From contig JAGOAS010000001.1 of the NCBI GenBank assembly GCA_017983795.1, forward strand, positions 395,689-459,688: 64,000 nt of DNA, read 5' to 3'. The position numbers and the translations under genes were made by a program. Position 1 is the first letter of the stretch. The number at the start of each line of letters is the position of its first letter. Below the pieces are notes generated by a model. That model searched no databases. It saw only the letters and a program-made list of their open reading frames with translations, and was not told the DNA's origin. This document shows positions 8,924 to 58,175 of the stretch, piece by piece. Source of the stretch: Piscinibacter sp. GTDB taxonomy: Bacteria; Pseudomonadota; Gammaproteobacteria; Burkholderiales; Burkholderiaceae_C.

Positions 8924-8933
8924 GGAGCATCAG

Positions 8934-9710: not shown

Positions 9711-9720
9711 GGAAGTCGAC

Positions 9721-29527: not shown

Positions 29528-30217
29528 TCATGGTCCTGCAGGACCGGGGAAGCCCTGCAGGAACCCCGTTGCTCGGGCCGCAGCTTCATCGAATGTCGGG
29601 CGATATTGAAGTGTGTCGATGGCCTCGAACTGAGCGCGAAGCACGTCCGAACGGCTGTGCAACTGGTCGATGAGCGCGTGCCGGTGGCGTGTCAAGAATC
29701 GATGCGCCTGGCGCAGAGCATCCGGTTCCCGCTCAATGACCAACGATAGATCGAAGAGGTCCCGAGCACTGAGCGTATCGCCGCGATGCCAAAGCTTCTT
29801 CGCGATGATCTCGGTCGCAGTCTCCACTCGCACCTGCCGCCTGAGAACCCGCCATCGCTCGTAGGGCATGTCCGTGAGGTTGGGCGAGGCGACGAAGTCG
29901 ATCTCGCCCTCGGGACGCAGGAGTTTCACGTAGCCGGCGCCCTCGACGTAGTCCGGGGCGATGGTCTCCGCCAGGTCACTGAGGCGAGGCGTTACGTGCC
30001 CGAGGTATTGCGGGTCGGGCACGAAGATGTCGATATCCTTGCTGCGCCGGTGACGGTAGCGGAACATGAGCACCGTTCCACCTCCCAGCGTCCAGAAGGG
30101 ATCGCTGAGACCGCGCGTGCTCAGTTCGTCGATCAGAAGGAAGGCCTGCGCGAGCAGGGCTCGCCAAGGACCTTCTGGCAACCGGGCAGGCTGGCGGCGG
30201 ACGACATCGGTCGTCAT
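29528..30217 (-). CDS. AbiEii/MenT-type nucleotidyltransferase toxin
   Basis: 229 residues. Nucleotidyltransferase fold signature LGGGTVLMFRYRHRRSKDID with the metal-binding Asp pair in KDIDIF and a later Asp in GEIDFVAS; the helical C-terminal half (ATEIIAKKLWHRGDTLSARD, LFDLSLV) is typical of AbiEii/AbiGii toxins that modify tRNA or other targets. The start at 30217 gives an ATGA overlap with the antitoxin; 30223 is also possible. Toxin of a type II- or IV-like pair with the XRE gene upstream. Confidence 0.85.
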   Translation of the reverse strand: MTTDVVRRQPARLPEGPWRALLAQAFLLIDELSTRGLSDPFWTLGGGTVLMFRYRHRRSKDIDIFVPDPQYLGHVTPRLSDLAETIAPDYVEGAGYVKLLRPEGEIDFVASPNLTDMPYERWRVLRRQVRVETATEIIAKKLWHRGDTLSARDLFDLSLVIEREPDALRQAHRFLTRHRHALIDQLHSRSDVLRAQFEAIDTLQYRPTFDEAAARATGFLQGFPGPAGP

Positions 30218-30705
30218 GCCCATGCAGCTCGCGGTGACTTCAGTTCATGGGCCCAGCGCAGCAGGTGCTGCCAGACCACCTTGGCCGGCACGCCCTGCGA
30301 GTGCGCGGCCTCTTCGACGGCCGAGACGATGAACTTTGCCGGTGCTTCATCGAGCATCGTCGAGACATGCGGCAACCACATCGGCGGAATCTCACCACTG
30401 GCAAGGGCCGTGGCCAGCAGTTTCGGGGTCAGCGTTCGCCTGTAGCTGACGCTGGCTGTCTGGCTGATGGCCTGCAGCCCCCGACTCCGACTCCCTTCAT
30501 GCTCCGCACGCAAGGACAGGCCGAGGAGGTCCAGAAGCTGCGCAAGTTTGGTGACGCCGAGGTCAACGATGGTGCCGGTTTCAAGTTGGTTGATCGTTGC
30601 GCGCGACAGACCGGAAAGGCGCGCCAATCGTGCCTGGGAGAGGCCGAGCTCCTCGCGGCGCGTGCGAACCATCCGACCGATCTCGTCGAGACGCAATGAA
30701 GACAT
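30214..30705 (-). CDS. XRE-family antitoxin/regulator paired with the AbiEii-like toxin
   Basis: 163 residues. N-terminal HTH_3 domain (RREELGLSQARLARLSGLSR, ATINQLETG) and a C-terminal helical extension (KLLATALASGEIPPMWLPHV) that likely masks the toxin. First gene of the pair; a perfect 18-bp palindrome lies about 30 bp upstream of its start. Confidence 0.85.
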   Translation of the reverse strand: MSSLRLDEIGRMVRTRREELGLSQARLARLSGLSRATINQLETGTIVDLGVTKLAQLLDLLGLSLRAEHEGSRSRGLQAISQTASVSYRRTLTPKLLATALASGEIPPMWLPHVSTMLDEAPAKFIVSAVEEAAHSQGVPAKVVWQHLLRWAHELKSPRAAWA

Positions 30706-32410: not shown

Positions 32411-33355
32411 ATGCACCACCTGATCCTGCGCCCAGGCCCGGAACTGGTCCTGCGGGCCTTCCGCCCCGAGCCTGATGAACTCGGCCCGCGCCCCAAGGAG
32501 CGCAAGGTCACCGACCGTGCGCACGAGTTCCTGTTCGAGGCCATCACCCTGCATCCGCAAGTCACGCTGGCCGATGTCTTCGCCCTGATGGAGGCCAGCC
32601 CGCTGCTCAAGCGCATCTATCGACCGTCGTTCGTCGGCGAGCTCTGTGCCGAGGCGAGCAAAGGCCCGGTCCATGGTGAGCAGCAGCCTGCGCACGACCG
32701 CATCGAAACCCTGGAGCTTTACGCGCAGTGGGGCCTGGACACGCACACCCAGACCTACAGCGGCACGACCCGACTGCGCCTGCATGGCGTGGGGCCGGTG
32801 CTGCAGGAAGACCATCCGGAGGAGCACAAGCGCAAGGGCGAACGCATCGAGTGGGCCGTGTCGCTCACGCCGCTGCGCAGCCTGCTGGCGCTGCCGGTCC
32901 GCGTGAACCAAAGCGTGCGCATCACCGAGGACGACCAGGCGGCCCAGGCCTGGATGCAGGAGATCGGGCGCGCCCAGGTGGAAGACGTGACCTTGGGCCA
33001 GGTGATCGAAGGGCTGATGTGGGAACTGTCGTTCCATGGCGGCCCCGCCGAGCAGGAGGCCGTGGCCGAGGGCCTGCGCCAGCAGGTGGCCGAGTTGAAG
33101 GACGGCACGGCCAAGACGTATTCGTCCGACGAGGTTTTCGAGCGCCTGGGGCTGCCTGGCTGTGAGGGCCTATTCGATGAGTTTGGCGGGCACGAACCCC
33201 GCGAGGTGGACCAGGCCTTGCGGGACATCGGCGACACGGAGAACGCTGCCGACTGGATAGCCCGCAAGTTCGAGGGTCGCGTGGTCGTCAAGCCCGAGTT
33301 CCGACACCTCAACGGGCGCGAGTTCCGCCGCGCGCGGCAAGACCTGCGGCGATGA
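32411..33355 (+). CDS. Unknown protein coupled to a SWIM zinc-finger protein
   Basis: 314 residues from the ATG at 32411. No signal peptide or membrane segment; mixed alpha/beta with charged helices (KRKGERIEWAVSLTPLRSLL, EAVAEGLRQQVAELKDGTAK). No family recognised. Its stop overlaps the SWIM gene start (ATGA), so they almost surely function together. A diverged copy of codons ~27-50 is found again at 36121-36210. Confidence 0.75.
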   Translation: MHHLILRPGPELVLRAFRPEPDELGPRPKERKVTDRAHEFLFEAITLHPQVTLADVFALMEASPLLKRIYRPSFVGELCAEASKGPVHGEQQPAHDRIETLELYAQWGLDTHTQTYSGTTRLRLHGVGPVLQEDHPEEHKRKGERIEWAVSLTPLRSLLALPVRVNQSVRITEDDQAAQAWMQEIGRAQVEDVTLGQVIEGLMWELSFHGGPAEQEAVAEGLRQQVAELKDGTAKTYSSDEVFERLGLPGCEGLFDEFGGHEPREVDQALRDIGDTENAADWIARKFEGRVVVKPEFRHLNGREFRRARQDLRR

Positions 33356-35202
33356 GCCATCCGGCGGATCACGCCCTGCTGCAGGCACTGAGCGATGGGG
33401 CCCTGAAGGCCACCAGCAACGCCACCATCTTCAAGCGCGGCCAGGCCTATGCCCAGTCCGATGCGGTGCAGGCCGTTGAACAGGAAGACGGGCCCGTGCC
33501 CGCGGCGCGCGCGACGGTGGTGGGCACGCAGCCCTACGAGGTTGAAGTCTGGGTCGACGAGGGCGCCGTGGGTGGCCAGTGCGACTGCCCTAATGCCGAG
33601 GACGGCTGGTTCTGCAAGCACCAGGTGGCGCTGGCCATGGTCTGGCGCGGCTTGCTTGGCGGCGATGCGCCGGCCCCGGACGAGGGCGCCCGTGCGAAAA
33701 CGGCTGCGGCAGCCAAGCGTGCCCGCACCATCGAGGACCGCCGCGAGGCCCTGGCCGAGTTCCTGCGCGGCCAGGACGCGCAGGTGATGGCGCAGCGCCT
33801 GCTCGAACTGGCCGACCGCGACCCCGCCGTCGAACGTGAACTGCAGCAGTGGCGCAAGCTCAGCGAGGTGCAGCGAGGCGCCGCCGGCCTGACCGAGCTG
33901 AAGGCCCTGGCCACGCAGATCCTGGCACCGGGCCGCGACTTCCTGGACTGGCGCCAGACCTTCGGCTACGCGCAACGCGCCGCCGACGTGTTGCCGCTGC
34001 TGGCGCAGACCCGGGCGCGACATCCGGAAGATGCGCTGGCGCTGGGCCTGCACGCCCTGCGCCGCGCCTGGGCCGCGATGGAGCAGGCCGATGATTCCGG
34101 CGGCGACATCGGCGGCCTGGCGCGCGCCATCGGCGACGAATGGGTCGAAGCGCTGCGCGCCGCTGGTCCGCGGCCCGCTGCCTTCGGCGACAGCTACCTG
34201 CAGGTGCTGCTGGACGATCCGATGATGAGCTTCGACACCGCGGCCGCCGAAGCGGCTTTGGGCGATGCCGCGCGCGAGCGCTTCAGTCGCAGCCTGGCCG
34301 CCCGCTGGCGCGCCGCGAAGGACGCTGTGCTGGCCGCGCGGGCCGCCCACGCCGCCAAGGTGGCCGAGGCGCGGCGGCTGAAGCGCCGCGAACCCTACTA
34401 CGACCGGCACAACGAACGCCCGGCCGGGCTCCTGACGCTGGAGCACCTGTACCTCAGGCGCCTGGAAGCCGATGGCGACATCGACGGCGCCCTGGCCGTG
34501 CTGCGAGAAGACTTGCCTGCCGCGGGCACCTATGGGGCTGTCACCGCCTTCCTGGAGCGGAATGGGCGCCTGCGCGAAGCCTTCGCCAATGCCGAGGTGG
34601 CGCTGAAGGCCCATCCGGAGGATGACCACCTGCAACTGGACATGCTGCGCTGCTACGAGCGTGATGGCTGGGCCGACGAGGCCCAGGCCCTGCGCCGCAG
34701 GCGTTTCGAGCGCTGGCCCAGCGTCGAGGGCTACCGCGAGCTGTTGCGTGCCGGTGCTGCGGCCGGCCGCGATGCAGACGCACTGCGCACCGAACTGCAG
34801 GCGGTGCTGGTAGCGCGCGAGCAGCAGGTGGCCCCGCACATCCGCGCCCGCACCGGCGAGGCCGGCACCGACGTGACCTTGCGCGTGGACGTGCTGTGCA
34901 TGGAGCAACGCTGGGGCGACGCGCTGGCCCTCGTGCAGCCGCCTGCGCGTTGCCAGCCCAACACGCTGCGGACGCTGGTGCGCAACCTGGGCAAGGAACA
35001 CCAGGCGCAGCGCTTCGAACTGCTGCAGCGTGTGCTGGTGCAGGCCATGCAGACGGCCACCAGCCCCTACGCGGCCGAGCTGAAACTGGTCGAAGAAATC
35101 TGCGGCCTGCTGGATGCTGCCCGGCGCCTGGCCTGGCTGGCCAGCCTGCGGGCGGAGTTCAAGGCCAAGCGCAACTTCGTAGGCGGGTTGCCGACGGGTT
35201 GA
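33352..35202 (+). CDS. SWIM zinc-finger protein
   Basis: 616 residues. The SWIM motif CxCx8CxH is formed by Cys77, Cys79, Cys88 and His90 (CDCPNAEDGWFCKH). The remaining ~500 residues are alpha-helical with TPR/HAT-like repeats (EHLYLRRLEADGDIDGALAV, AFANAEVALKAHPEDDHLQL, LQLDMLRCYERDGWADEAQA). SWIM domains bind DNA or proteins and are found with SNF2 helicases and MuDR transposases. Here it is coupled only to the unknown gene upstream. Role unknown. Confidence 0.85.
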   Translation: MSHPADHALLQALSDGALKATSNATIFKRGQAYAQSDAVQAVEQEDGPVPAARATVVGTQPYEVEVWVDEGAVGGQCDCPNAEDGWFCKHQVALAMVWRGLLGGDAPAPDEGARAKTAAAAKRARTIEDRREALAEFLRGQDAQVMAQRLLELADRDPAVERELQQWRKLSEVQRGAAGLTELKALATQILAPGRDFLDWRQTFGYAQRAADVLPLLAQTRARHPEDALALGLHALRRAWAAMEQADDSGGDIGGLARAIGDEWVEALRAAGPRPAAFGDSYLQVLLDDPMMSFDTAAAEAALGDAARERFSRSLAARWRAAKDAVLAARAAHAAKVAEARRLKRREPYYDRHNERPAGLLTLEHLYLRRLEADGDIDGALAVLREDLPAAGTYGAVTAFLERNGRLREAFANAEVALKAHPEDDHLQLDMLRCYERDGWADEAQALRRRRFERWPSVEGYRELLRAGAAAGRDADALRTELQAVLVAREQQVAPHIRARTGEAGTDVTLRVDVLCMEQRWGDALALVQPPARCQPNTLRTLVRNLGKEHQAQRFELLQRVLVQAMQTATSPYAAELKLVEEICGLLDAARRLAWLASLRAEFKAKRNFVGGLPTG

Positions 35203-36120: not shown

Positions 36121-36210
36121 GTGGAGCGCCACGTCGCCGATCGTGCACACGAGTTCCCGTTCAAGGCGGCTGAGACTTACCCGGCGTTGGCAATGCTCGC
36201 CTTGAGCTGC
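36121..36210 (+). pseudogene. Diverged fragment of the gene at 32411
   Basis: The plus strand encodes ERHVADRAHEFPFKAAETYP, matching ERKVTDRAHEFLFEAITLHP in the protein at 32411, with similar DNA for about 60 bp. Only this piece is present, and it overlaps the 3' end of the minus-strand HTH gene. Likely a leftover from a duplicated or lost copy. Confidence 0.45.
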
Positions 36211-36548
36211 TCGCGCAGCGCCTTGCGGCCGACGCTGTTCGTTGCCCGCCAGGCCGCCAGAGCGAGTTCAAGGAACGCTGTCTCCGCGGGTGTCGGCGAC
36301 GCATCCTTTCGCTCCGCATCGAGCCAGCCCACAGGCCGCCCTGTCATCGCCTCGATCTGCCGCGCCAGCTTGTCGCCGATGGGCCGTGACGATTTGATCT
36401 GGCTCCACATGCTGGGCGAGATCTGCAGTGTGGCCGCGAACGTCTGCTCCAGGCCCTTCGGCGGTGTGCCTTGCGCCAATGCCTTCTCGGCGTAGTCCTG
36501 GAACAGGGCCAGTGCGTTCTGTCTTCGGGCGACGGTGATGTTGGGCAC
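36177..36548 (-). CDS. Small lambda-repressor-like HTH protein
   Basis: 123 residues. A central HTH with FAATLQISPSMWSQIKSSRP then IGDKLARQIEAMTGRPVGWL resembles phage-repressor-like regulators; the C-terminal helix follows. It is divergent from a strong sigma70-type promoter at 36598 whose spacer carries a perfect operator-like palindrome, so it is the likely repressor of that promoter (inference). Confidence 0.7.
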   Translation of the reverse strand: MPNITVARRQNALALFQDYAEKALAQGTPPKGLEQTFAATLQISPSMWSQIKSSRPIGDKLARQIEAMTGRPVGWLDAERKDASPTPAETAFLELALAAWRATNSVGRKALREQLKASIANAG

Positions 36549-36597: not shown

Positions 36598-36626
36598 TTG
36601 ACGACTGGGTAAAGACTCTTTACAGT
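36598..36626 (+). promoter_or_regulatory. Sigma70 promoter with palindromic operator in the spacer
   Basis: TTGACG at 36598-36603, 17-bp spacer, TACAGT at 36621-36626. GTAAAGACTCTTTAC (36609-36623) is a perfect 7+1+7 palindrome covering the spacer and the start of the -10. It fires toward the small ORF at 36661 and the terminator at 36919. Confidence 0.6.
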
Positions 36627-36891: not shown

Positions 36892-36918
36892 CGCGTCCTT
36901 CCTAGCTCTGTTCGCAGA

Positions 36919-36950
36919 GGCCCGGATTCCGCAAGGATCCGGGCCTTTTT
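36919..36950 (+). terminator. Rho-independent terminator before the tRNA array
   Basis: GGCCCGGAT/ATCCGGGCC, a 9-bp perfect stem with a 9-nt loop, followed by TTTTT. It closes the transcript starting at 36598 and isolates the tRNA array from upstream transcription. Confidence 0.85.
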
Positions 36951-37024
36951 CATTTCCGACCCAACCGGCCTGCGCATCGGCACAGGCCAGCGATCGATGG
37001 ATCGCACCACCGCTCGCGGTGGAC

Positions 37025-37036
37025 GCTCTTTAACAA
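37025..37036 (+). promoter_or_regulatory. boxA antitermination element upstream of the tRNA array
   Basis: GCTCTTTAACAA matches the rRNA-operon boxA core (E. coli TGCTCTTTAACAA), bound by NusB/NusE to let RNA polymerase pass Rho and structured regions. It lies 52 bp before the first tRNA, just after a CCACCG/CGGTGG hairpin. It suggests that the whole array is read as one long untranslated transcript. Confidence 0.7.
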
Positions 37037-37087
37037 GTTGCAGCAAGGCAGCCTCGGTACTGGCCGATGGCATGCCTTGCACCTTTT

Positions 37088-37163
37088 GTGGATGTAGCTC
37101 AGATGGCAGAGCGCGGCCACGCCATGGCCGAGGCCACGAGTTCAAGACTCGTCATCCGCTCCA
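37088..37163 (+). tRNA. tRNA-Gly(GCC)
   Basis: Acceptor GTGGATG/CATCCGC with one G-U pair, discriminator T, CCA encoded. Anticodon stem CGGCC/GGCCG with loop ACGCCAT: anticodon GCC. Position 33 is C, not the near-universal U. Confidence 0.85.
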
Positions 37164-37306
37164 CTTCGGGTGTGTCCATGCACTCCGAGGCCACATTACA
37201 TGGTGTTGGTGGCCCGGGATGTGCGCGGTCCTTGGCCAGACCACGTGCAGCGAGACACCACATCCGACGGGATGCTCGCGTTTGGGCACAGCCGAAGTGG
37301 ATTCAT

Positions 37307-37383
37307 GCCCTCGTAGCTCAGCAGGCAGAGCAGCCGCCTTGTAAGCGGCAGGCCGCGCGTTCGAATCGTCGCCGAGGGCACCA
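37307..37383 (+). tRNA. tRNA-Thr(TGT)
   Basis: Acceptor GCCCTCG/CGAGGGC, discriminator A, CCA encoded. Anticodon stem GCCGC/GCGGC, loop CTTGTAA gives TGT. The T-stem 3' strand has one extra T (CGTCGC against GCGCG), a bulge that makes the gene 77 nt. Confidence 0.88.
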
Positions 37384-37391
37384 CCAGTCAA

Positions 37392-37468
37392 GTCGCGTTC
37401 GTCTAGACGGCCGAGGACACCACTCTTTCAAGGTGGATACGCGGGTTCGAATCCCGCACGCGACGCCA
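37392..37468 (+). tRNA. tRNA-Glu(TTC)
   Basis: Acceptor GTCGCGT/ACGCGAC, discriminator G, CCA encoded. Anticodon stem CCACT/GGTGG, loop CTTTCAA gives TTC. T-loop TTCGAAT. Canonical. Confidence 0.95.
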
Positions 37469-37561
37469 GCACAAGGAACCCTCGTCGAGCTCACGCTTCG
37501 GGGTGGAAATCGGCCGCAACGATTGGGCGGCGCCGGAACCCGTGACCGGATGGATTTCAGT

Positions 37562-37640
37562 GGGGGTGTAGCTCAACACCCGGAAGAGCAGCCGCCTTGC
37601 AAGCGGCAGGCTGCAGGTTCGAACCCTGTCACCTCCACCA
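37562..37640 (+). tRNA. tRNA-Ala(TGC)
   Basis: Acceptor GGGGGTG/CACCTCC with a G3-T70 wobble. G3-U70 is the alanine identity pair. Discriminator A, CCA encoded. Anticodon stem GCCGC/GCGGC, loop CTTGCAA gives TGC. The D-loop (AACACCCGGAA) is longer than usual. Confidence 0.92.
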
Positions 37641-37650
37641 AAAAATCAAC

Positions 37651-37726
37651 GCCTCGTTAACTCAGTGGCCAGAGTGCCGGCCTGTCTAGCCGGAAGCCGC
37701 GGGTTCGACTCCCGCACGAGGCGCCA
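37651..37726 (+). tRNA. tRNA-Asp(GTC)
   Basis: Acceptor GCCTCGT/ACGAGGC, discriminator G, CCA encoded. Anticodon stem CCGGC/GCCGG, loop CTGTCTA gives GTC. T-loop TTCGACT. Canonical. Confidence 0.94.
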
Positions 37727-37735
37727 GATCAATTT

Positions 37736-37811
37736 GCCGAGATAGCTCAGCAGGTAGAGCGGCGCGTTGAAGGCGCGTGCGTCGGGGGATCGAGGCCCTC
37801 TCTCGGCACCA
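37736..37811 (+). tRNA. tRNA-Phe(GAA)
   Basis: Acceptor GCCGAGA/TCTCGGC, discriminator A, CCA encoded. Anticodon stem GCGCG/CGCGT, loop TTGAAGG gives GAA. The T-loop is ATCGAGG, so T54 is replaced by A. Confidence 0.9.
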
Positions 37812-37820
37812 GTAGCCAGA

Positions 37821-37900
37821 ACCTCGTTAGCTCAGCGGGAATTCAGAGCGCCGGTCTACGAAGCCGGAGGTCGCACGTTCGAGTCGTGCACGAGGTGCCA
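37821..37900 (+). tRNA. tRNA-Arg(ACG)
   Basis: Acceptor ACCTCGT/ACGAGGT, discriminator G, CCA encoded. Anticodon stem CCGGT/GCCGG, loop CTACGAA gives ACG (A34 to inosine by TadA expected). D-loop of 12 nt (AGCGGGAATTCA) makes the gene 80 nt. Confidence 0.92.
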
Positions 37901-37905
37901 ACAAC

Positions 37906-38051
37906 GGGTGCGTGGCAGAGAGGCCGATTGCGGCTGCCTGTAAAGCAGGCTCCCACGAGGACACGGTGGTTCGCTCAGCGCGCAGCGCTGGACGCGGCGC
38001 CAGCCGCGGGCCGCAGGCCGAGCGCAGCGAGCAATCCATCCGCACCCACCA
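37906..38051 (+). tRNA. tRNA-Tyr(GTA) interrupted by a 59-nt insertion in the T-loop
   Basis: Acceptor GGGTGCG/CGCACCC pairs perfectly, discriminator A, CCA encoded. Anticodon loop CTGTAAA gives GTA, and a type II variable arm is present. T-stem GGTGG (37965-37969) and CCATC (38036-38040) pair, and the T-loop halves TTCG (37970-37973) and AAT (38033-38035) would make a normal 7-nt loop, but 59 nt (37974-38032) lie between them. The insert starts GCTC and ends GAGC and folds into a GC-rich hairpin. Without removal of the insert the tRNA is probably non-functional. Confidence 0.8.
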
Positions 38052-38058
38052 CAGCCAT

Positions 38059-38134
38059 ACCGGGCTAGCTCAACTGGCAGAGCGGCGGCCTCCAAAGCCG
38101 AAGGTTCGCGGTTCGATCCCGTGGTCCGGTGCCA
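38059..38134 (+). tRNA. tRNA-Trp(CCA)
   Basis: Acceptor ACCGGGC/GTCCGGT with a G-U pair, discriminator G, CCA encoded. Anticodon loop CTCCAAA gives CCA; the first anticodon-stem pair is G-A. T-loop TTCGATC. Confidence 0.92.
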
Positions 38135-38139
38135 GACAT

Positions 38140-38225
38140 CTCGACGTAGCCAAGTGGTCGAAGGCGGCGGCCTGCAAAGCCGCAGGCGCAATCCCGCATC
38201 CGTTCGAATCGGATCGTCGAGTCCA
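38140..38225 (+). tRNA. tRNA-Cys(GCA) with long variable arm
   Basis: Acceptor CTCGACG/CGTCGAG, discriminator T (U73 is the main CysRS identity base), CCA encoded. Anticodon stem GCGGC/GCCGC, loop CTGCAAA gives GCA. T-arm ATCCG-TTCGAAT-CGGAT. The variable region is about 14 nt (AGGCGCAATCCCGC), unlike the 4-5 nt of ordinary bacterial tRNA-Cys. Confidence 0.85.
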
Positions 38226-38232
38226 GTGCAGT

Positions 38233-38376
38233 TCCCCGATAGCGCAGTTGGCAGAGCGCCTGGCAGTTAGCCAGGAGGTCCGTGGCTGCGCGGGCCCTGC
38301 CCGCGGCCTTCGGCCCGTTGCTGCGCAACGTCCTGCATGGCTGCGCCCTGCAGAGCCAAGCCACGTCGGGGAGCCA
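38233..38376 (+). tRNA. tRNA-Asn(GTT) interrupted by a ~70-nt insertion in the T-loop
   Basis: Acceptor TCCCCGA/TCGGGGA, discriminator G, CCA encoded. Anticodon stem CCTGG/CCAGG with loop CAGTTAG: GTT, but position 33 is A. T-stem halves CGTGG (38281-38285) and CCACG (38361-38365) pair perfectly, yet 75 nt separate them instead of 7. The insert is GC-rich and full of short hairpins (GGGCCCTGCCCGCGG, GGCCTTCGGCC, GTTGCTGCGCAAC). No intact TTCGA remains. Confidence 0.75.
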
Positions 38377-38388
38377 ACTCAGTTTCAT

Positions 38389-38464
38389 CTCGGTGTGGCG
38401 CAGATGGCAGCGCGCGTGATTTGGGATCACGAGGCCGCAGGTTCGAGACCTGCCACCGAGACCA
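38389..38464 (+). tRNA. tRNA-Pro(TGG)
   Basis: Acceptor CTCGGTG/CACCGAG, discriminator A, CCA encoded. Anticodon stem CGTGA/TCACG, loop TTTGGGA gives TGG. T-loop TTCGAGA. Canonical. Confidence 0.94.
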
Positions 38465-38485
38465 GCGTCAGGCGTGTGCTTGGGT

Positions 38486-38560
38486 GTGGCCGTAGCTCAA
38501 TGGCAGAGCTGTGGGCTGTGATCCCGCGGGTGCCGGTTCGACTCCGGCCGGCCACCCCCA
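38486..38560 (+). tRNA. tRNA-His(GTG) without G-1
   Basis: Acceptor GTGGCCG/CGGCCAC, C73, then an extra C before CCA. Anticodon stem GTGGG/CCCGC, loop CTGTGAT gives GTG. The base before G1 is T where bacterial tRNA-His genes encode the G-1 required by HisRS. Confidence 0.87.
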
Positions 38561-38578
38561 AGCACATGCGAACTCCAT

Positions 38579-38654
38579 GCGTCGCGAACTCGAGCGGCAG
38601 AGTACCGGCCTCTTAAGCCGGCGAGTCAGGGTTCGAGCCCCTGGCGACGCACCA
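38579..38654 (+). tRNA. tRNA-Lys(CTT)
   Basis: Acceptor GCGTCGC/GCGACGC, discriminator A, CCA encoded. Anticodon stem CCGGC/GCCGG, loop CTCTTAA gives CTT. T-loop TTCGAGC. Canonical apart from GA for the usual TA after the acceptor. Confidence 0.93.
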
Positions 38655-38661
38655 GCAACAA

Positions 38662-38748
38662 CCCCTTGTGGCGGAAATGGCAGACGCACCGGTCTCAGAA
38701 ACCGGGGCCCGCACGGGCATGTCCGTTCGACTCGGACCGAGGGGACCA
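38662..38748 (+). tRNA. tRNA-Leu(CAG)
   Basis: Type II tRNA, 87 nt. Acceptor CCCCTTG/CGAGGGG, discriminator A, CCA encoded. Anticodon stem CCGGT/ACCGG, loop CTCAGAA gives CAG. Variable arm GCCCGCACGGGC forms a 4-bp hairpin. Confidence 0.93.
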
Positions 38749-38754
38749 AACAGC

Positions 38755-38826
38755 AGTCCTGTAGCTCAGCGGCAGAGCGGCGCCCTCATAAGGCGAAGGC
38801 CGGTGGATCGTACCCACCCAGGACGA
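38755..38826 (+). tRNA. tRNA with CAT anticodon (Met or Ile2), no encoded CCA
   Basis: D-arm GCTC/GAGC; anticodon stem GCGCC/GGCGA, loop CTCATAA gives CAT. T-stem GGTGG/CCACC with loop ATCGTAC (T54 to A). Acceptor GTCCTG/CAGGAC pairs for six bases, but the outermost pair is A-G, and the sequence after the discriminator is TCA, not CCA. It needs CCA addition and may be decayed. Elongator Met versus lysidine-type Ile cannot be told by eye. Confidence 0.75.
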
Positions 38827-38858
38827 TCAGTTCCATCAACCACCCGAGGAGGTGTGCC

Positions 38859-38951
38859 ATGAAACCGTTCGACGAAGACGACACGTGCTTTCACGACCAT
38901 GAGCAAGCGGCGCAAGGGATTCCCGTCCGAGACGGGCGTCAAGCGCGGTGA
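38859..38951 (+). CDS. 30-residue ORF with a strong Shine-Dalgarno, upstream of the SEC-C gene
   Basis: The ATG at 38859 is preceded by GAGGAGG at 7 nt. Product [20 protein letters not shown] followed by [10 protein letters not shown]. It overlaps the start of the SEC-C reading frame in another phase, so ribosomes loading here could reinitiate at 38899. It may be a leader peptide or the true N-terminus of a frameshifted protein. Confidence 0.4.
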
Positions 38952-39067
38952 TCGCGTCGTGCGAGGAACCAAGGAGCTGAGCGAGAAGCTCGGTCGCAAC
39001 GACCCATGCCCCTGCGGCTCCGCGAGGTTGTTTCAAGCACTGCTGTCTGCGCAGCGGGTCTCTTTGA
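38899..39067 (+). pseudogene. Small SEC-C-motif protein with a 1-bp frameshift
   Basis: From the ATG at 38899 the frame reads [20 protein letters not shown], then [20 protein letters not shown], the N-terminal two Cys of a SEC-C zinc motif (CPCGS...KHCC). At the TTGTTTCAAG run one extra T moves the frame; skipping it restores [12 protein letters not shown] and a stop at 39067, completing the C-C half of the motif. As written, the frame runs to 39075 without those Cys. SEC-C motifs bind zinc and are found at the SecA C-terminus and in many small proteins. It sits inside the tRNA array, between tRNA-Met/Ile(CAT) and tRNA-Ser. Confidence 0.6.
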
Positions 39068-39122
39068 CGGCGTGAACCGTCATCACTATCGGCGCTGACG
39101 ACGCGTCGGCGCAGAACGACAC

Positions 39123-39213
39123 GGAGAGCTGCCCGAGTGGCAAGGGGCTGGCTTGCTAAGCCAAGGCCGGTGATCACATCGCCGCGGGCGTTCGATTCGC
39201 CCGCTCTCCGCCA
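39123..39213 (+). tRNA. tRNA-Ser(GCT)
   Basis: Type II, 91 nt. Acceptor GGAGAGC/GCTCTCC, discriminator G, CCA encoded. Anticodon loop TTGCTAA gives GCT; the outer anticodon-stem pair is C-A. Long variable arm and T-loop TTCGATT present. Confidence 0.93.
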
Positions 39214-39219
39214 GACAGG

Positions 39220-39295
39220 TGCGGCGTAGTCGAGAGGCCTCAGACACCAGCCTTTGAAGCTGGGGACGTTGGTTCGAATCCAACCGCCGCTGCCA
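39220..39295 (+). tRNA. tRNA-Gln(TTG)
   Basis: Acceptor TGCGGCG/CGCCGCT: six pairs plus a T1-T72 mismatch where tRNA-Gln usually has a weak U1-A72. Discriminator G, CCA encoded. Anticodon stem CCAGC/GCTGG, loop CTTTGAA gives TTG. T-loop TTCGAAT. Confidence 0.92.
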
Positions 39296-39305
39296 GGAAC
39301 TCAGT

Positions 39306-39381
39306 ACGTCCGTAGCTCAGCGGCAAGAGCGCGACTCTCCGAAGGTCGAGGCCGGTGGTTCGAGCCCACCCGGACGTTCCA
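39306..39381 (+). tRNA. tRNA-Arg(CCG)
   Basis: Acceptor ACGTCCG/CGGACGT, discriminator T, CCA encoded. Anticodon stem CGACT/GGTCG, loop CTCCGAA gives CCG. T-loop TTCGAGC. The second Arg tRNA in the array. Confidence 0.93.
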
Positions 39382-39422
39382 ACCATCCACCCCAAGCTCT
39401 GGCCGATGAAAGGAGGCCGCCC

Positions 39423-39998
39423 ATGCACCACCCACACCACAGCCATGTGCTGCAACTCGACATCCATGGCACGCCACAGGCGTGGATCTCGCTCGAGCAC
39501 GCGGCGCTGCATGTGGCCACGGGCTCGGTGGCCTGGGTCGACGGCGACGGCCCGCTGGCCACGCTGCGTGGTGGCTACAACGTCGCTCGCGGCCGGCAGT
39601 CGCATATTGACATCCACCCGATCATGGCGCTCACCGGTGCCTCCAAGGTCAACCTGTTCGGCGTGGTGCCGGCGTTCACCAAGGCCAAGCTGTTCCGGCG
39701 TGACCGGATGACCTGCGCCTACTGCGGCCAGCGGTTCAACGAACGCGACCTGTCGTGCGAGCACATCCTGCCGCAGTCGCGCGGTGGCCGCTGGACCTGG
39801 ATGAACCTGGTCTCGGCCTGCGGCGCGTGCAACGGCCGCAAGGCCGACCGCACGCCGGAGGAAGCGGGCATGCCGCTGCTGTACCTGCCGTACGTGCCAA
39901 GCCGCTTCGAGGACTTTCTGCTCGAAGGCCGGCACATCCGCGCCGACGTGCACGAGTGGCTGGCCTCGCGCCTGCCGAAGGGATCGCGCCTGAGCTGA
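39423..39998 (+). CDS. HNH endonuclease inside the tRNA array
   Basis: 191 residues. Zinc-knuckle HNH: CAYCGQRF near residue 99, CEHILPQSRGGRWTWMNLVS (catalytic His in CEHILP), then ACGACNGRKADRTPEEAGM. This HNH subgroup is widespread as single genes. Here it lies between tRNA-Arg and tRNA-Ile genes in the same orientation, which is unusual. It may be a homing-type or defence nuclease, or process the locus; no evidence distinguishes these. Confidence 0.88.
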   Translation: MHHPHHSHVLQLDIHGTPQAWISLEHAALHVATGSVAWVDGDGPLATLRGGYNVARGRQSHIDIHPIMALTGASKVNLFGVVPAFTKAKLFRRDRMTCAYCGQRFNERDLSCEHILPQSRGGRWTWMNLVSACGACNGRKADRTPEEAGMPLLYLPYVPSRFEDFLLEGRHIRADVHEWLASRLPKGSRLS

Positions 39999-40139
39999 TG
40001 AAGCTTTGGCGCCCACGCATCTGCCGTGAAAGGCGAACGCTCACAGGCCAGGGGTTCGTGAACCCCGCCGGTGGGCGGTGTCCGGGCGCAAGTCCGTCGA
40101 TGCCGTCCATGCCGCGTCGCCGGAAGCGGTGGATACCCC
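39999..40139 (+). other. Structured non-coding stretch in the tRNA array
   Basis: No ORF with support. GGCCAGGGG near 40051 can pair with CCCCGGCC at 40136-40143, enclosing a GGGGTTC/GAACCCC hairpin and a CGGGC-GCAA-GTCCG tetraloop hairpin, so the transcript should be highly folded. The closing strand overlaps the start of the tRNA-like element at 40140. Confidence 0.35.
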
Positions 40140-40194
40140 GGCCATCGATGGATCGCACCGCAAGGTGCCAGGTTCGATTCCTGGATGGCCTCCA
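40140..40194 (+). pseudogene. Truncated tRNA-like element (no D-arm or normal anticodon arm)
   Basis: Acceptor GGCCAT/ATGGCC, discriminator T and CCA, and a perfect T-arm CCAGG-TTCGATT-CCTGG are present. Between acceptor and T-arm only about 21 nt remain, including GCACC-GCAA-GGTGC, a 5-bp hairpin with a GNRA loop. Total 55 nt. The segment ATCGATGGATCGCACC in it also occurs at 36993-37008, just before the boxA, suggesting that the element arose by recombination with the array leader. Confidence 0.6.
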
Positions 40195-40270
40195 CTGGAT
40201 AGCTCAGTCGGGTAGAGCAACGACCTGATAAGTCGTCTGTCGCGGGTTCGACTCCCGCTCCAAGCAGCCA
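40193..40270 (+). tRNA. tRNA-Ile(GAT) with eroded acceptor stem
   Basis: D-arm GCTC/GAGC, anticodon stem ACGAC/GTCGT with loop CTGATAA giving GAT, T-arm GCGGG-TTCGACT-CCCGC are normal. The acceptor 5' side CACTGGA pairs with TCCAAG only through CTGGA and a bulged A; the 3' end is GCCA. Its 5' end abuts or overlaps the CCA of the truncated element, so part of the acceptor was lost at that junction. Confidence 0.8.
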
Positions 40271-40508
40271 GAACCGGTCGAGAGACCACCGCCGAACGTG
40301 CACCGAGGGCGCAAGCCCGACCGTGCATCAGTGGCGGCCGCTCGCGCGACGGGCACGCGGGGCTTCGCAGCCACGGCCAGCCGAGGTGATCGTCAGGGAG
40401 GCGGTCGCCAACGCGCACCGTGGCCTCCGGGCCCAGGCATCCGTCGTCCGCTGCCGCCGCTGTAACGGCACCCTATTCAACACACGCAAACAACATAAGG
40501 AGAACACC
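40271..40508 (+). other. Untranslated leader between the tRNA array and the slipin gene
   Basis: No supported ORF. Contains a GGGC-GCAA-GCCC tetraloop hairpin near 40306 and other GC-rich repeats; the A-rich end (AACATAAGGAGAACACC) gives the Shine-Dalgarno of the slipin gene. No terminator separates the array from slipin, so array read-through into slipin-rtcB is possible. Confidence 0.4.
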
Positions 40509-41657
40509 ATGAAGATGCTCAAGCGTGTCACTGTGAAGAAGAACGAGCGCGGCCTGCTGCTGCGCAATGGCGACTTCGAGCGTGTGCTGCAACCCGGCAC
40601 GCACTGGCTGTTCTCGCCGATCGACACCCTGCGCGTGGAGGTCTTCGCGCTGGAGCAGGCCGCGTTCACCCACGGCCTGGCCGACTACCTGATGGCCAAG
40701 GAGCCGCAGGTGGTGGCGGCCGAGTTCGTGCGCGTGGAACTCACCGAGAACCAGGTGGGCCTGCGCACCGAGAACGGCGTGCTGGCCGAAGTGCTGGCGC
40801 CGGCCACCCGGCGCCTGTACTGGAAGGGCCTGGTCGGCGTGCAGGTGGAGGTGATCGAAATCGCCGGCACCAACGACCGGGCCGACGTGCCGGCCGCGGT
40901 GGTGTCGCGCCTCGTGCAGACGCAACTGCGCCAACGCGCGGTGGCGGGCCTGGCCGGCGTGCTGCAGGTGCAGGTGCCCGAACACGGTGCCGGCATCCTG
41001 TGGATCGATGGCAAGGTGGACCGGCTGCTGGCACCGGGCTCGTACGCGTTCTGGAAGTTCAACCGCAACGTGTCGGTGGAAGGGGTGGACCTGCGGCTGC
41101 AGGCGCTGGAAGTCACGGGCCAGGAGATCCTGACCCGCGACAAGGTGGCACTCCGACTGAACCTGTCGGCCACCTGGCGTTTCACCGATGTGCTGAAGGC
41201 CTACAAGGAACTGGCCAAGCCCGCGGACCACCTGTACCGCGAGCTGCAGTTCGGCCTGCGCGCTGCGGTGGGCACGCGCTCGCTCGACGAGCTGCTGGAG
41301 AACAAGACGGTCATCGACGAGGTCGTGACCGCCCAGGTCACCGCCAAGCTCGCAGGCTACGGCCTGCAGCTGGACGGCGTGGGCGTGAAGGACATCGTGC
41401 TTCCGGGTGAGATGAAGACCATCCTCGCCCAGGTAGTGGAGGCCGGCAAGGCTGCCGAGGCCAACGTGATCCGGCGCCGTGAAGAGACGGCGGCGACCCG
41501 CTCGCTGCTGAACACCGCCAAGGTGATGGAGGGCAACCCAGTCGCCCTGCGCATGAAGGAGCTCGAGACGCTGGAACGCGTGGCCGAGCGCATCGACAAG
41601 ATCTCCGTGTTCGGGGGTCTGGACCAGGTAATCAACGGGCTGGTGAAGCTTCGCTGA
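40509..41657 (+). CDS. Slipin (SPFH/Band 7) family protein
   Basis: 382 residues from the ATG at 40509, with AAGGAG at good distance. The central SPFH domain spans residues ~170-330: GAGILWIDGKVDRLLAPGSY, LEVTGQEILTRDKVALRLNL, LRAAVGTRSLDELLENKTVI, YGLQLDGVGVKDIVLPGEMK, then a coiled-coil-forming tail (GKAAEANVIRRREETAATRS). The N-terminal ~160 residues look like a second, diverged half (MLKRVTVKKNERGLLLRNGD). No clear N-terminal transmembrane helix. Directly upstream of rtcB; slipin-rtcB pairs are seen in other bacteria, but the molecular role is unknown. Confidence 0.9.
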   Translation: MKMLKRVTVKKNERGLLLRNGDFERVLQPGTHWLFSPIDTLRVEVFALEQAAFTHGLADYLMAKEPQVVAAEFVRVELTENQVGLRTENGVLAEVLAPATRRLYWKGLVGVQVEVIEIAGTNDRADVPAAVVSRLVQTQLRQRAVAGLAGVLQVQVPEHGAGILWIDGKVDRLLAPGSYAFWKFNRNVSVEGVDLRLQALEVTGQEILTRDKVALRLNLSATWRFTDVLKAYKELAKPADHLYRELQFGLRAAVGTRSLDELLENKTVIDEVVTAQVTAKLAGYGLQLDGVGVKDIVLPGEMKTILAQVVEAGKAAEANVIRRREETAATRSLLNTAKVMEGNPVALRMKELETLERVAERIDKISVFGGLDQVINGLVKLR

Positions 41658-41713: not shown

Positions 41714-42931
41714 ATGGATACCAACCACATCCACGAAGACGTGCCCGGCGGCGTGCCGTTGAAGATGTGGACGCGCGGCGTGCCCGTGGAAGACGAGGCC
41801 AAGCGCCAGCTGACCAATGCCGCGCGCCTACCCATCGTCTTCAAGCACATCGCGGCCATGCCGGACGTGCACTTCGGCATCGGCGCCACCGTGGGCTCGG
41901 TGCTCCCGACCATCAAGGCCATCATCCCGGCCGCGGTGGGCGTGGACATCGGCTGCGGCATGATCGCCTGCAAGACCACGCTGACGGCCGAGGACCTGCC
42001 GGACAACCTGGGCCCGCTGCGTTCGGCCATCGAGCGCGCGGTGCCGCATGGCCGCCAGCCCGGCAGCCGCGACCCCGGCGCGTGGCAGAAGGCACCGGGC
42101 AGCGTGAACACCGCCTGGGCGCAGCTGGAGCCCGAGTTCACCGAACTCTGCCGTGACTACCCCAAGCTGGAGAAGACCAACCACATCCAGCACCTGGGCA
42201 CGCTCGGCACGGGCAACCACTTCATCGAGGTCTGCCTGGACGAGGCGGGTTTCGTCTGGTTCATGCTGCACTCCGGCTCGCGCGGCGTGGGCAACTTCAT
42301 CGGCACGATGTTCATCGAGCTGGCCAAGCAGGACGCGATGCGCCATCAGGCGAATCTGCCGGACCGCGACCTGGCCTACTTCGAGGAAGGCAGCCACTAC
42401 TTCGGCGACTACGTGCGCGCCGTGGGCTGGGCGCAGAAGTTTGCGGCCATCAACCGCGAGGTGATGATGAAGCGCGTGATCGAAGCCGCGAAGACGGTGA
42501 TCCGCAAGAACTTCCAGAGCCACATCGAGGCGGTGAACTGCCACCACAACTACGTGAGCAAGGAACACCACTTCGGCGAGGACGTATACGTCACCCGCAA
42601 GGGCGCAGTGAGCGCAAAGGCCGGGCAGTTGGGCATCATCCCCGGCAGCATGGGCGCGCGCAGCTACATCGTGCGCGGCAAGGGCAATCCGGATTCGTTC
42701 GAGTCCTGCTCGCACGGCGCCGGCCGCGTGATGAGCCGCGGCGAGGCCAAGCGCCGCTTCACGCTGGCCGACCACCGCGCCGCGACGGAAGGCGTCGAAT
42801 GCCGCAAGGACAAGGACGTGATCGACGAAACGCCCGCGGCCTACAAGGACATCGACGCGGTGATGGAAGCGCAGCGCGACCTGGTCGACGTGGTGCACAC
42901 GCTGAAGCAGGTGGTGTGCGTGAAGGGCTGA
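41714..42931 (+). CDS. rtcB: RNA-splicing ligase RtcB
   Basis: 405 residues, Mn/GTP-dependent ligase joining 2',3'-cyclic phosphate (or 3'-phosphate) and 5'-OH RNA ends, as made by tRNA anticodon nucleases and ribotoxins. Start at 41714, preceded by GGAGA; an ATG at 41702 lacks a ribosome site. Ligands visible: Asp78 and Cys81 in VGVDIGCGM, Asn168-His169 in GTGNHFIE, His186, His277/278 in NCHHNYV. The guanylylated His is His334 in SCSHGAGR. All key residues are intact. Neither RtcA nor the RtcR activator is nearby. It follows slipin by 56 bp. Confidence 0.97.
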   Translation: MDTNHIHEDVPGGVPLKMWTRGVPVEDEAKRQLTNAARLPIVFKHIAAMPDVHFGIGATVGSVLPTIKAIIPAAVGVDIGCGMIACKTTLTAEDLPDNLGPLRSAIERAVPHGRQPGSRDPGAWQKAPGSVNTAWAQLEPEFTELCRDYPKLEKTNHIQHLGTLGTGNHFIEVCLDEAGFVWFMLHSGSRGVGNFIGTMFIELAKQDAMRHQANLPDRDLAYFEEGSHYFGDYVRAVGWAQKFAAINREVMMKRVIEAAKTVIRKNFQSHIEAVNCHHNYVSKEHHFGEDVYVTRKGAVSAKAGQLGIIPGSMGARSYIVRGKGNPDSFESCSHGAGRVMSRGEAKRRFTLADHRAATEGVECRKDKDVIDETPAAYKDIDAVMEAQRDLVDVVHTLKQVVCVKG

Positions 42932-43136: not shown

Positions 43137-44282
43137 ATGAAAGCCCGCCCGCCCACTTACGTCTGGCAGCACCCAAGCTGGCCCGACCTTCGGCACGACC
43201 GTATTCGTGTCAGTGAGGCCCTGGCCAAGGCGCGCCGTGCGCAGGGCTTGGTGGAAGGCAAGCTCGCAGTCCTGGGCTTCGAGCAACGCCTGGAGCTGGC
43301 CGCAGAAGCCTGGAGCCAAGAAGCGCTGGCCACGTCGGCCATCGAGGGCGAGCGCCTGGACCTGGCCGCCGTGCGCAGCTCGGTGGCGCGACGGCTGGGC
43401 GTGGGCCAGCAGGATGGGCCCAGCGCGCCGCGCAACGTGGAAGGCCTGCTCGACATCATGGACGACGCGGTCAGGCGCTGCCTTGACCCGTTGACCCACG
43501 AGCGCCTGCACGCCTGGCATGCCGCGCTCTTTCCCACCGGCTACTCCGGCATGACGAAGATCCGCGTCGGCGGCTACCGCGAGCATGGTGAGCCGATGCA
43601 GATCGTCAGTGGCCGCGTAGGCCGCGAGAAGGTGCACTACGAGGCGCCGCCTTCGGCGCGGGTGCCCGACGAGATGGATCGCCTGCTGCAGTGGTTCAAC
43701 GCTACCACCGAACCCGACACGCTGGTCCGGGCCGCGCTCGTGCACCTGTGGTTCGAGACCATCCACCCCTTCGAGGACGGCAACGGCCGCCTCGGGCGCG
43801 TGCTGGTCGACCTGCTGCTGGCCCGCGACAGCGGCGAAGTCAGCCGCATGTTCCGCACGTCCCAGCGCCTGCTCGATCGTCGCCGCGACTACTACGCGAA
43901 CCTGGAGCGCGCGCAGCATGGCGAACCCGACGTGACGGACTGGGTATGCTGGTTCATCGAACAGATGCAGGCCGCCTGCGAAGAGGCGTCGGCGGTGGTG
44001 GACCACATGCTCGTGAAGGCGCGTTTCTGGCTGGACCACGGCAACAAGGCCATGAATGAACGGCAACGCAAGGTGATGAACCTGCTGCTCGATGCCGGGC
44101 CGGGTGGCTTCGACGGCGGAATAAGCACGAAGAAGTACGAGAACGCAACCGGGACTTCGCGGGCGACAGCGTCGCGCGAACTCATCGACCTTGAGGCGAT
44201 GGGGCTGCTGCATCAGGTGGGCGGTGGCCGCTCGACGCGCTACTACGTCAGGCTGCCTGGCTGGGCGCCGGCGTCGACGTAG
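43137..44282 (+). CDS. Fic-family AMPylator with N-terminal self-inhibition and C-terminal winged helix
   Basis: 381 residues. The Fic core motif is HPFEDGNGRLGR (HPFxDGNGRxxR) near residue 205, so catalytic residues are intact. An inhibitory motif TSAIEG at residues 66-71 ([S/T]xxxE[G/N]) lies N-terminal to the core, making this a class II self-inhibited Fic protein. The N-terminal region fits the DUF4172 type (TYVWQHPSWPDLRHD). The C-terminus (KKYENATGTSRATASRELID, LEAMGLLHQVGGGRSTRYYV) is a winged helix. It transfers AMP or another nucleotide to a protein target, unknown here. Confidence 0.92.
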   Translation: MKARPPTYVWQHPSWPDLRHDRIRVSEALAKARRAQGLVEGKLAVLGFEQRLELAAEAWSQEALATSAIEGERLDLAAVRSSVARRLGVGQQDGPSAPRNVEGLLDIMDDAVRRCLDPLTHERLHAWHAALFPTGYSGMTKIRVGGYREHGEPMQIVSGRVGREKVHYEAPPSARVPDEMDRLLQWFNATTEPDTLVRAALVHLWFETIHPFEDGNGRLGRVLVDLLLARDSGEVSRMFRTSQRLLDRRRDYYANLERAQHGEPDVTDWVCWFIEQMQAACEEASAVVDHMLVKARFWLDHGNKAMNERQRKVMNLLLDAGPGGFDGGISTKKYENATGTSRATASRELIDLEAMGLLHQVGGGRSTRYYVRLPGWAPAST

Positions 44283-57953: not shown

Positions 57954-58175
57954 ATGGCCAGAGCACCTGAAGCCGTCATGACCGTCAAGGAAGTCGCTGA
58001 CTACTTGCGGGTCAATCAGCGCACGGTTTACCGCTTGGCCGTCGAACACAAGATGCCGGGCTTCAAGGTCGGTGCGACCTGGCGCTTCAAGCGCGTGGAC
58101 ATCGACAGTTGGATCGCAGCCCAGGCCACCGCCCCGACAGCCGGCGCAACCGTCGAGGGGAAGCGCGCACGATGA
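57954..58175 (+). CDS. Small excisionase-type HTH regulator of the helicase operon
   Basis: 73 residues from the ATG at 57954. HTH_17: VMTVKEVADYLRVNQRTVYR, LAVEHKMPGFKVGATWRFKR, VDIDSWIAAQ. ATGA overlap with the helicase gene, so it belongs to that operon and likely represses it. Same class of protein as the excisionase at 56566 but with a different genomic role. Confidence 0.8.
   Translation: MARAPEAVMTVKEVADYLRVNQRTVYRLAVEHKMPGFKVGATWRFKRVDIDSWIAAQATAPTAGATVEGKRAR

Follow-up and report, generated by a model that had tools for sequence, protein, structure and literature searches.

A supernumerary tRNA array with a putative regulator gene, joined to RNA-repair genes and a tRNA-like structured RNA in Piscinibacter

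Long, near-complete tRNA arrays accompanied by HNH genes are already known from Anabaena and from mycobacteria. In Anabaena, stress induces an array of 26 tRNA genes; its regulator TrcR represses the array along with rtcB, a slipin gene, and HNH genes, and translation inhibitors lift this repression, as described in the available text of two papers (PMC10272220, PMC9938897). The mycobacterial arrays, according to the text available for PMC12803027 and PMC5966550, cover 19 to 20 amino acids, contain an embedded HNH gene, and spread horizontally; a structured RNA of ~430 nt occurs in ~81% of them, an XRE regulator and HNH genes occur in ~87% of the G2 arrays, and the array tRNAs of Mycobacterium avium differ from the housekeeping set (PMC12803027). 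In Salmonella, rsr and the YrlA/B RNAs accompany rtcB (PMC7790460, in the part available). Here, we describe a tRNA array located on the + strand at 37088 to 39381 of a 64,000-nt stretch of DNA from Piscinibacter sp. (GCA_017983795.1, contig JAGOAS010000001.1, positions 395,689 to 459,688), hereafter the window, to which all coordinates refer unless a surveyed locus (designated by an L number) is named. This array is a variant of the kind known from Anabaena and mycobacteria, and the arrays described in PMC12803027, PMC5966550, PMC10272220, and PMC9938897 do not support the view of a preliminary description of this DNA that such a set was undescribed.

The array lies within a unit that comprises, in order, an XRE-like repressor gene, a promoter, a terminator, a boxA, the tRNA genes, an HNH gene, a structured RNA, a slipin gene, and rtcB. 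We consider it probable that this unit is a long supernumerary tRNA array of the L-array type that operates under stress control and has become linked with an operon for RNA repair. In our analysis, its function is most likely to supply an inducible back-up tRNA set together with RNA repair, the back-up function being proposed because of the Anabaena precedent and the gene context.

ARAGORN called 17 intact tRNA genes covering 16 amino acids, all on the + strand between 37088 and 39381 (an 18th call in the window, a Leu gene at 15059 on the - strand, lies outside the array). A sensitive Rfam scan of positions 36900 to 40400 gave 18 tRNA matches of 37.9 to 65.7 bits (cut-off, 29), corresponding to the same 17 genes and to a supposed Ile gene that is discussed below. 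All tRNA counts given here are based on ARAGORN, which misses interrupted genes; comparison with relatives added two such genes, for Tyr and Asn. The 17 intact and two interrupted genes form a dense single-strand run in 2.3 kb, in the order Gly, Thr, Glu, Ala, Asp, Phe, Arg(ACG), interrupted Tyr, Trp, Cys, interrupted Asn, Pro, His, Lys, Leu, CAT, Ser, Gln, and Arg(CCG), where the CAT anticodon could belong to either Met or Ile2. The preliminary description had listed 20 tRNA genes plus a truncated one. Most of that list was recovered, as were the single orientation and the lack of Val (called in L040, L123, L125, and L128), but Tyr and Asn are split, and the Ile and truncated genes are parts of the structured RNA. 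Its 19 amino acid identities thus become 16 from intact genes, or 18 counting the two interrupted ones. The ARAGORN run that it had proposed returned a real array of 17 rather than 20 intact genes, and all 17 exceed the covariance model cut-off for tRNA in Rfam.

The composition of the array is not what chance sampling of the host would give. When 17 genes were drawn at random from a host pool of 42 (39 from the genome plus Ile, Ala, and Leu genes entered by hand), a mean of 12.1 amino acids was covered, and 16 or more were reached in 0.3% of the draws. Compared to the host gene with the same anticodon, 16 array tRNAs show just 57 to 79% identity; judged by these sequences, the array tRNAs are therefore supernumerary and not recent host copies. 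The sole array anticodon of the 17 without a counterpart among the host genes read is Ala(TGC), perhaps reflecting rRNA operons missing from the assembly.

The array is followed on the + strand by a gene for an HNH_5 endonuclease (HNH5; 39423 to 39998; Pfam HNH_5, 1.1e-16; also identified through homologues), which served as the query for an alignment search of genome contigs. The best 80 of at least 546 confirmed loci were retained, which favors close relatives; most of their titles name Burkholderiales (Variovorax, Rubrivivax, Ideonella, Piscinibacter, Roseateles, and others), and the loci are mutually related rather than phylogenetically independent, L127 and L132 sharing their genomes with L040 and L041. 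Within 8 kb upstream of HNH5, at least one same-strand tRNA gene was found in 70 of the 80 loci, at least 3 in 41, and at least 10 in 13. Ten loci carry 15 or more tRNA genes, with the following numbers of amino acids and genes: 20 and 23 in L128 (Aquabacterium terrae), 20 and 27 in L174, 20 and 28 in L193, 19 and 22 in L183, 18 and 18 in L157, 18 and 20 in L123, 18 and 22 in L125, 16 and 19 in L127, 16 and 20 in L188, and 14 and 19 in L169. Seven of these ten arrays were unusually complete in random draws from the window host's tRNA pool (P of 0.00002 to 0.006), and L127 gave a P of 0.03. The one-tRNA-per-amino-acid composition proposed in the preliminary description is thus nonrandom in the window and in 7 of 10 long relatives, and weaker or nonsignificant in L127, L188, and L169. 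The small arrays outside Variovorax (22 loci with 2 to 8 tRNAs, relatedness uncorrected) repeatedly retain Asp (17), Arg(ACG) (14), Glu (14), His (12), and Pro (12). Some of these retained tRNAs are known targets of anticodon nucleases.

Divergent from the array, a GTG-initiated gene on the - strand (36177 to 36548) encodes a 123-residue XRE/Cro-like protein, as indicated by homologues, profile, and fold. A homologue stands divergently upstream in 63 of the 68 named HNH5 loci that have at least 3.5 kb upstream of HNH5, and in these 63 loci, all 402 tRNAs that lie between the two genes are on the + strand; a wider set of 90 loci, including genus and plasmid loci, has the gene in 70. The window protein had no match in Pfam or NCBIfam. 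A profile of the family matched phage CI/Cro repressors (best E value, 0.0012), and its predicted fold is all-helical (mean pLDDT, 82.5), with phage-repressor and other helix-turn-helix proteins as the top Foldseek matches, none of them at an E value of 0.001 or below. From this sequence and model evidence, we infer that the protein acts as a repressor.

The leader between this gene and the first tRNA contains several candidate signals on the + strand. A promoter-like sequence, TTGACG-17-TACAGT (36598 to 36626), encloses the palindrome GTAAAGACTCTTTAC (36609 to 36623), a possible operator; the form GTAAAGNNTCTTTAC was found in 18 of the 70 repressor-gene loci, at a distance of 48 to 107 nt from where the repressor match ends. 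Between the promoter and the first tRNA, an intrinsic terminator (36918 to 36951), possibly an attenuator, aligns in four genus loci, and its motif GGGCCTTTTT recurs in the leaders of 39 of the 70 loci. By eye, both arms of a leader hairpin change in concert between species. Further downstream, a boxA-like antitermination signal, GCTCTTTAACAA (37025 to 37036), is invariant across the four genus loci; the boxA-like motif is present in 22 of the 70 loci, and CTCTTTAA precedes the first tRNA by 62 to 63 nt in 6 of the 10 long arrays, with variants visible by eye in the other 4. A script located TTCTTTAACAATT in an rRNA operon of a genus relative, 3' of the 16S motif; what directly follows it we take to be the 23S start. 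The array boxA therefore directly resembles an rRNA antitermination signal. Each of two genomes has GCTCTTTAACAA twice, the second copy without a 16S start close by. A leader peptide before the terminator was also considered, as a similarly ended frame is open in 16 of 19 loci scanned, but it is not claimed, given a codon test in which differences at the three codon positions numbered 52/52/55 in four loci (89 nonsynonymous and 34 synonymous codons) and 18/10/12 in three loci (26 nonsynonymous and 9 synonymous codons).

Between HNH5 and the slipin gene, positions 40019 to 40490 on the + strand (ends approximate) encode a conserved structured RNA of ~480 nt with two tRNA-like domains, supported by covariation in 27 loci. 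These domains, at ~40140 to 40192 and 40196 to 40262, are what the preliminary description had taken for a truncated tRNA and a tRNA-Ile, respectively. The alignment (A4) had 27 rows; L172, with a gap of only 56 nt, had been excluded beforehand. RNAalifold predicted 57 pairs, 28 of which changed on both sides, and 95.4% of the cells were paired. Cells changed on both sides numbered 176, compared to a mean of 63 in shuffled alignments and 11 to 24 with a slid partner, and the covariation score was 0.340 versus 0.153 and 0.036 to 0.082, respectively, the counted structure having been predicted from the same alignment and the shuffles ignoring relatedness. The first domain has an acceptor, a hairpin, and a T-arm and lacks a D-arm. 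In the second, the acceptor helix comprises ~4 to 5 pairs in the rows checked by eye, and mean entropy is 0.14 bits in the D-arm, 0.37 in the T-arm, and 1.21 in the anticodon loop, with 14 anticodon forms in 26 ungapped loops. Loop position 33 is T in 19, C in 5, and G in 2, where two of the seven non-T loops (L043 and L131) are uncertain due to a gapped stem. In tRNAs that decode, position 33 is U and the identity is fixed. Because both vary here, the sequences suggest that the second domain is unlikely to decode in general; the complete tRNA model still matches it in L178 (58.8 bits). The Ile gene of the preliminary description is accordingly reassigned to a tRNA-like domain whose anticodon differs among species.

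A model of the 5' domain of this RNA (R1), trained on 26 sequences including the window, matched the window at 40037 to 40119 (89.2 bits, for a training sequence) and gave matches in 30 of 399 family genomes; at least 7 of the 30 had contributed sequences to its training. A slipin gene lies directly 3' of the RNA in 28 of these 30 matches, and the upstream neighbor is HNH5 (with or without an SDH protease) in 19, a divergent RtcR gene in 10, and neither in 1. In all 10 RtcR-adjacent loci, from five genera, a sigma-54-like site scoring 10 out of 11 precedes the R1 match by 45 to 47 nt, compared to a best score of 9 among 400 window pieces of 300 nt drawn at random; the RNA thus heads an RtcR-type operon in these sister lineages. 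A sigma-54 promoter at the array or at the RNA of the window was rejected, since the best score there was 7 out of 11 while the random pieces reach 9. In the distant locus L068, two fuller tRNA-like units stand at the same place, after an R1 match of 25.7 bits; L056, a third candidate for the RNA at the order level (24.0 bits, without the 3' end), was not counted.

Rfam scans of the RNA gave nothing above cut-off besides tRNA. Identity with YrlA was rejected for the segment near 40146 to 40245, which scored 26.5 bits against a cut-off of 69; comparably weak matches occur at ordinary tRNA-tRNA junctions of the array as well, and TROVE was found in 0 of 8 genus genomes. A YrlA match above cut-off (79.4 bits) occurs at 5016 to 5148 of L050, a locus that also has RtcR, tRNAs, HNH5, and RtcB.

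Downstream of the RNA on the + strand lie the genes for a slipin (SPFH/Band 7 protein; 40509 to 41657; Pfam Band_7, 4.9e-31) and the RNA ligase RtcB (41714 to 42931; Pfam RtcB, 1.6e-128), with starts set by alignment and comparison with relatives. Repair genes (slipin, RtcB, RtcR, or SDH protease) occur within 2.5 kb downstream of HNH5 in 43 of the 76 loci not at a contig end. Approached from the other side, an RtcB homologue (E value of 1e-50 or below) was found at 35 places in 30 of 100 genomes, including the window's own. Nine of the 34 places besides the window (6 to 19 kb each) have three or more tRNAs and 25 have fewer; the nine are six close relatives (L039 to L044), L050, whose genome has RtcR, and the distant L068 and L069. 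The RtcB of L068 is 53.8% identical to that of the window and accompanies 20 tRNAs and a slipin, and that of L069 is 55.1% identical and accompanies 35 tRNAs and HNH5. The same-strand arrangements seen are HNH5-RtcB, HNH5-RNA-slipin-RtcB, and HNH5-SDH-RtcB, with RtcR on the opposite strand, and in the window genome the array occupies the upstream position held by RtcR in sister loci. The coupling of the array to RNA-repair genes reported in the preliminary description is therefore supported as a recurrent linkage with RtcB, slipin, and RtcR in relatives. Among the array carriers, Aquabacterium terrae S2 and Albitalea terrae have rtcB downstream, and the incomplete gene table for 21.5 kb of Methylibium petroleiphilum PM1 lists no rtcB. 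A ClpP-like SDH-type protease gene stands between slipin and rtcB in L041 (5859 to 6887) and, by eye, likewise in L042 and L043.

The module from 36.18 to 42.94 kb aligns with genus relatives, the leader, HNH5, RNA, slipin, and RtcB at 73 to 96%, and its flanks mostly do not. To its left, L132 shares 26.7 to 28.9 kb of the window and yet shows no similarity over 28.9 to 36.2 kb, which marks the region as variable. Both plasmids and chromosomes carry related units, the chromosomal ones in surroundings that mostly differ. For the proposal of an integrated island, this supports a module conserved amid mostly nonaligning surroundings. Defence-like genes around the module include an AbiEii with a helix-turn-helix gene, a SWIM protein, a SoFic-like Fic, and large helicases (29528 to 30705, 33352 to 35202, 43137 to 44282, and 58109 to 63926). 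In PADLOC, RtcB and slipin had no match at an E value of 1e-5 or below, and HNH5 had only weak PtuB-like HNH matches.

The two interrupted genes and some further elements lie within the array on the + strand. tRNA-Tyr (37906 to 38051) carries a 59-nt T-loop insert at 37974 to 38032, and tRNA-Asn (38233 to 38376) carries a related insert in the opposite orientation at ~38286 to 38359. In both, the 5' part as far as the T-arm and the 3' end match the intact genes of a genus relative at 94 to 100%, with hairpin-rich DNA in between. Hairpin-rich elements of 59 to 74 nt, mostly related, are found in T-loops of various tRNAs in the window, L123, L138, L142, L180, L195, and L039. Among 14 split tRNA matches, 9 were judged T-arm cases, and 6 of these 9 inserts are placed precisely between TTCG and A with no duplication of the target, elements in both orientations being represented; these sequence features are possibly those of mobile palindromes that prefer the T-loop. 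Introns spliced by RtcB are not favored as an explanation, related elements having been found in both orientations. The core pattern of the insert has one exact copy and one copy with two mismatches in the genome of the window. Alignment with genus loci revealed a noncoding conserved element 3' of tRNA-Gly (CCACTTCGG...CCGAAGTGG; 37164 to 37301), which is 96% identical across 141 nt in L132 and whose core motif occurs in 8 of the 80 named loci and in the window. It is one of two conserved noncoding stretches in the array, the other being at 37469 to 37561 after Glu, neither with an Rfam match above cut-off. A 58-residue ORF with a SEC-C-type motif (38899 to 39075; weak NCBIfam matches, all under cut-off) overlaps a short upstream frame and has its frame also in L040, both by eye. 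In L039, a long ORF on the - strand at ~8724 to 9873, inside the array between Pro and His, is presumably PcfJ-like.

Under the reading that we favor, the XRE-like repressor would silence the promoter through the palindromic operator, as its position and sequence suggest. Once expressed, the transcript would pass the terminator with the aid of the boxA signal by antitermination, yielding tRNAs divergent from the host set, and would extend through the HNH gene and the structured RNA as far as slipin and RtcB. Upon damage to the translation machinery or to host tRNAs, the array would replace the lost tRNAs, as the Anabaena precedent implies, and RtcB, given its known activity, would rejoin broken RNA. 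The HNH nuclease probably maintains the mobility of the array. The sister loci suggest that the structured RNA was originally part of an RtcR/sigma-54-type repair operon, in which it would probably act as a tRNA mimic. A more immune-like module against tRNA-cleaving attack seems rather unlikely: the RNA would be a diversified tRNA bait or sensor for foreign anticodon nucleases, with the array refilling the tRNA pool and RtcB repairing the rest. On this view, covariation preserves the body of the RNA, whereas its anticodon loop would be diversified from species to species so that foreign anticodon nucleases cut it. YrlA-type Y RNAs, in which the T-arm comes first and the D-arm second, may have arisen from tandem tRNA junctions of this kind.

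Several observations weigh against a regulated back-up operon coupled to repair. RtcR and the Ro60 (TROVE) family were not found in the own genome or in the 8 genus genomes searched, and the RNA of the window has no sigma-54 site above background. The operator-type palindrome was not found in 52 of the 70 repressor-gene loci and the boxA-like motif was not found in 48, nor did the codon test find a coding signal in the leader frame before the terminator. L188 (16 amino acids from 20 genes; P of 0.06) and L169 (14 from 19; P of 0.34) are not significantly complete, the window host's pool having been used for all long arrays. The set is often not maintained either, as 55 of the 80 loci have just 1 to 8 tRNAs, and Tyr and Asn bear T-loop inserts and Val is lost in the window. 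These losses and inserts (9 of the 14 split matches, as judged) would also fit an array acquired by horizontal transfer that has ceased to function and is disappearing. Contig ends do not account for most of the small arrays, because in 46 of the 55 the repressor gene is present on the contig as well (upstream sequence is short in 7). We nonetheless regard such decay as unlikely, as 17 genes score well, module parts retain 73 to 96% identity to genus relatives, and the helices of the RNA covary. It is improbable, too, that the array and rtcB adjoin by chance because both land in one variable region: the 2.5 kb downstream of HNH5 are free of repair genes in 33 of 76 loci, some arrays adjoin unrelated genes (metabolic, FtsH-like, or unmatched in five such loci inspected), and the related loci are not independent counts, but same-strand adjacency recurs in several arrangements, also with distant RtcB types.

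The array might instead be counter-defence cargo, protecting a mobile element rather than the host itself against toxins or host defences that cleave tRNA, an explanation that we hold possible but do not expect to be correct. Plasmids speak for it, with a repressor homologue in five plasmid records (Variovorax, 3; Methylibium, 1; Polaromonas, 1), of which Methylibium RPME01 is typed conjugative, and with array and HNH similarity on the same plasmids. RtcB homologues also occur in 650 of 50,697 phage records, and the authors of PMC12803027 call the mycobacterial arrays a putative antidefense system in its available text. However, viral contigs yielded just three HNH5 homologues, all at contig edges where the upstream side is not visible, and the tie to an RtcR/slipin repair operon points to a role in the host. 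Compensation for the codon usage of foreign genes is very improbable. Several array isoacceptors do fit the commonest codons of 12 window ORFs (GGC, CTG, AAG, AGC, and CGC), but 16 of the 17 array anticodons are also found in the host, and the near one-of-each composition shows no enrichment for particular codons. In the same ORFs, Ala(TGC) and Thr(TGT) of the array mismatch the commonest codons GCC and ACC, which counts against the back-up function.

The joining of such arrays with RtcB and slipin provides a testable answer to what mobile tRNA arrays are for, namely, replacement and repair of damaged tRNAs. The head-to-tail joining, with its own regulator gene and an rRNA-like leader, links L-arrays, the RtcR/RtcB repair operon, and tRNA-like RNAs, which have hitherto been studied apart, and a structured RNA with a freely varying anticodon offers a new handle on what RtcB operons sense.

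Among described systems, the L-array (trn operon) of Anabaena sp. PCC 7120 is alike in being a silent supernumerary array with an adjacent HNH gene and in having rtcB, slipin, and HNH under one repressor; according to the available text of the Anabaena papers, its array lies on a plasmid and rtcB on the chromosome, whereas the two are adjacent here, and its repressor is of the RHH type, in contrast to the XRE-like regulator, structured RNA, and boxA leader of the Piscinibacter unit. The window array shares with L-arrays a dense one-strand run, divergence from the host tRNAs, and an associated HNH endonuclease. The mycobacterial arrays, as far as described in the text available, resemble it in their near-complete set, HNH gene, XRE regulator, and structured RNA; unlike here, the word RtcB appears nowhere in the main texts of PMC12803027 and PMC5966550, and the RNA of the window matches only tRNA above cut-off in Rfam. 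Rfam 15 contains the GOLLD and ROOL families. The RNA has no Rfam match to either, is linked to slipin/RtcB, and is shorter than GOLLD members, described as >800 nt. As in the RtcR-controlled rsr-yrlBA-rtcBA operon (PMC7790460, in the part available), an RNA with a tRNA-like domain lies in a sigma-54/RtcR operon with rtcB in the sister loci; slipin replaces rsr here, the 8 genus genomes have no TROVE gene, and the RNA stays at 26.5 bits against the YrlA cut-off of 69. RtcB is present in the window, and RtcR and the sigma-54 promoter are not, while both are present in the 10 sister loci. In the literature searched, which mostly did not cover subscription journals, we found no account of an array and rtcB in one unit, the papers retrieved on RtcB with tRNA arrays or tRNA genes being cyanobacterial, including the Anabaena work. 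The joining of the two in one unit is thus new as far as searched, and an RNA with a variable anticodon joined to slipin/RtcB also appears new.

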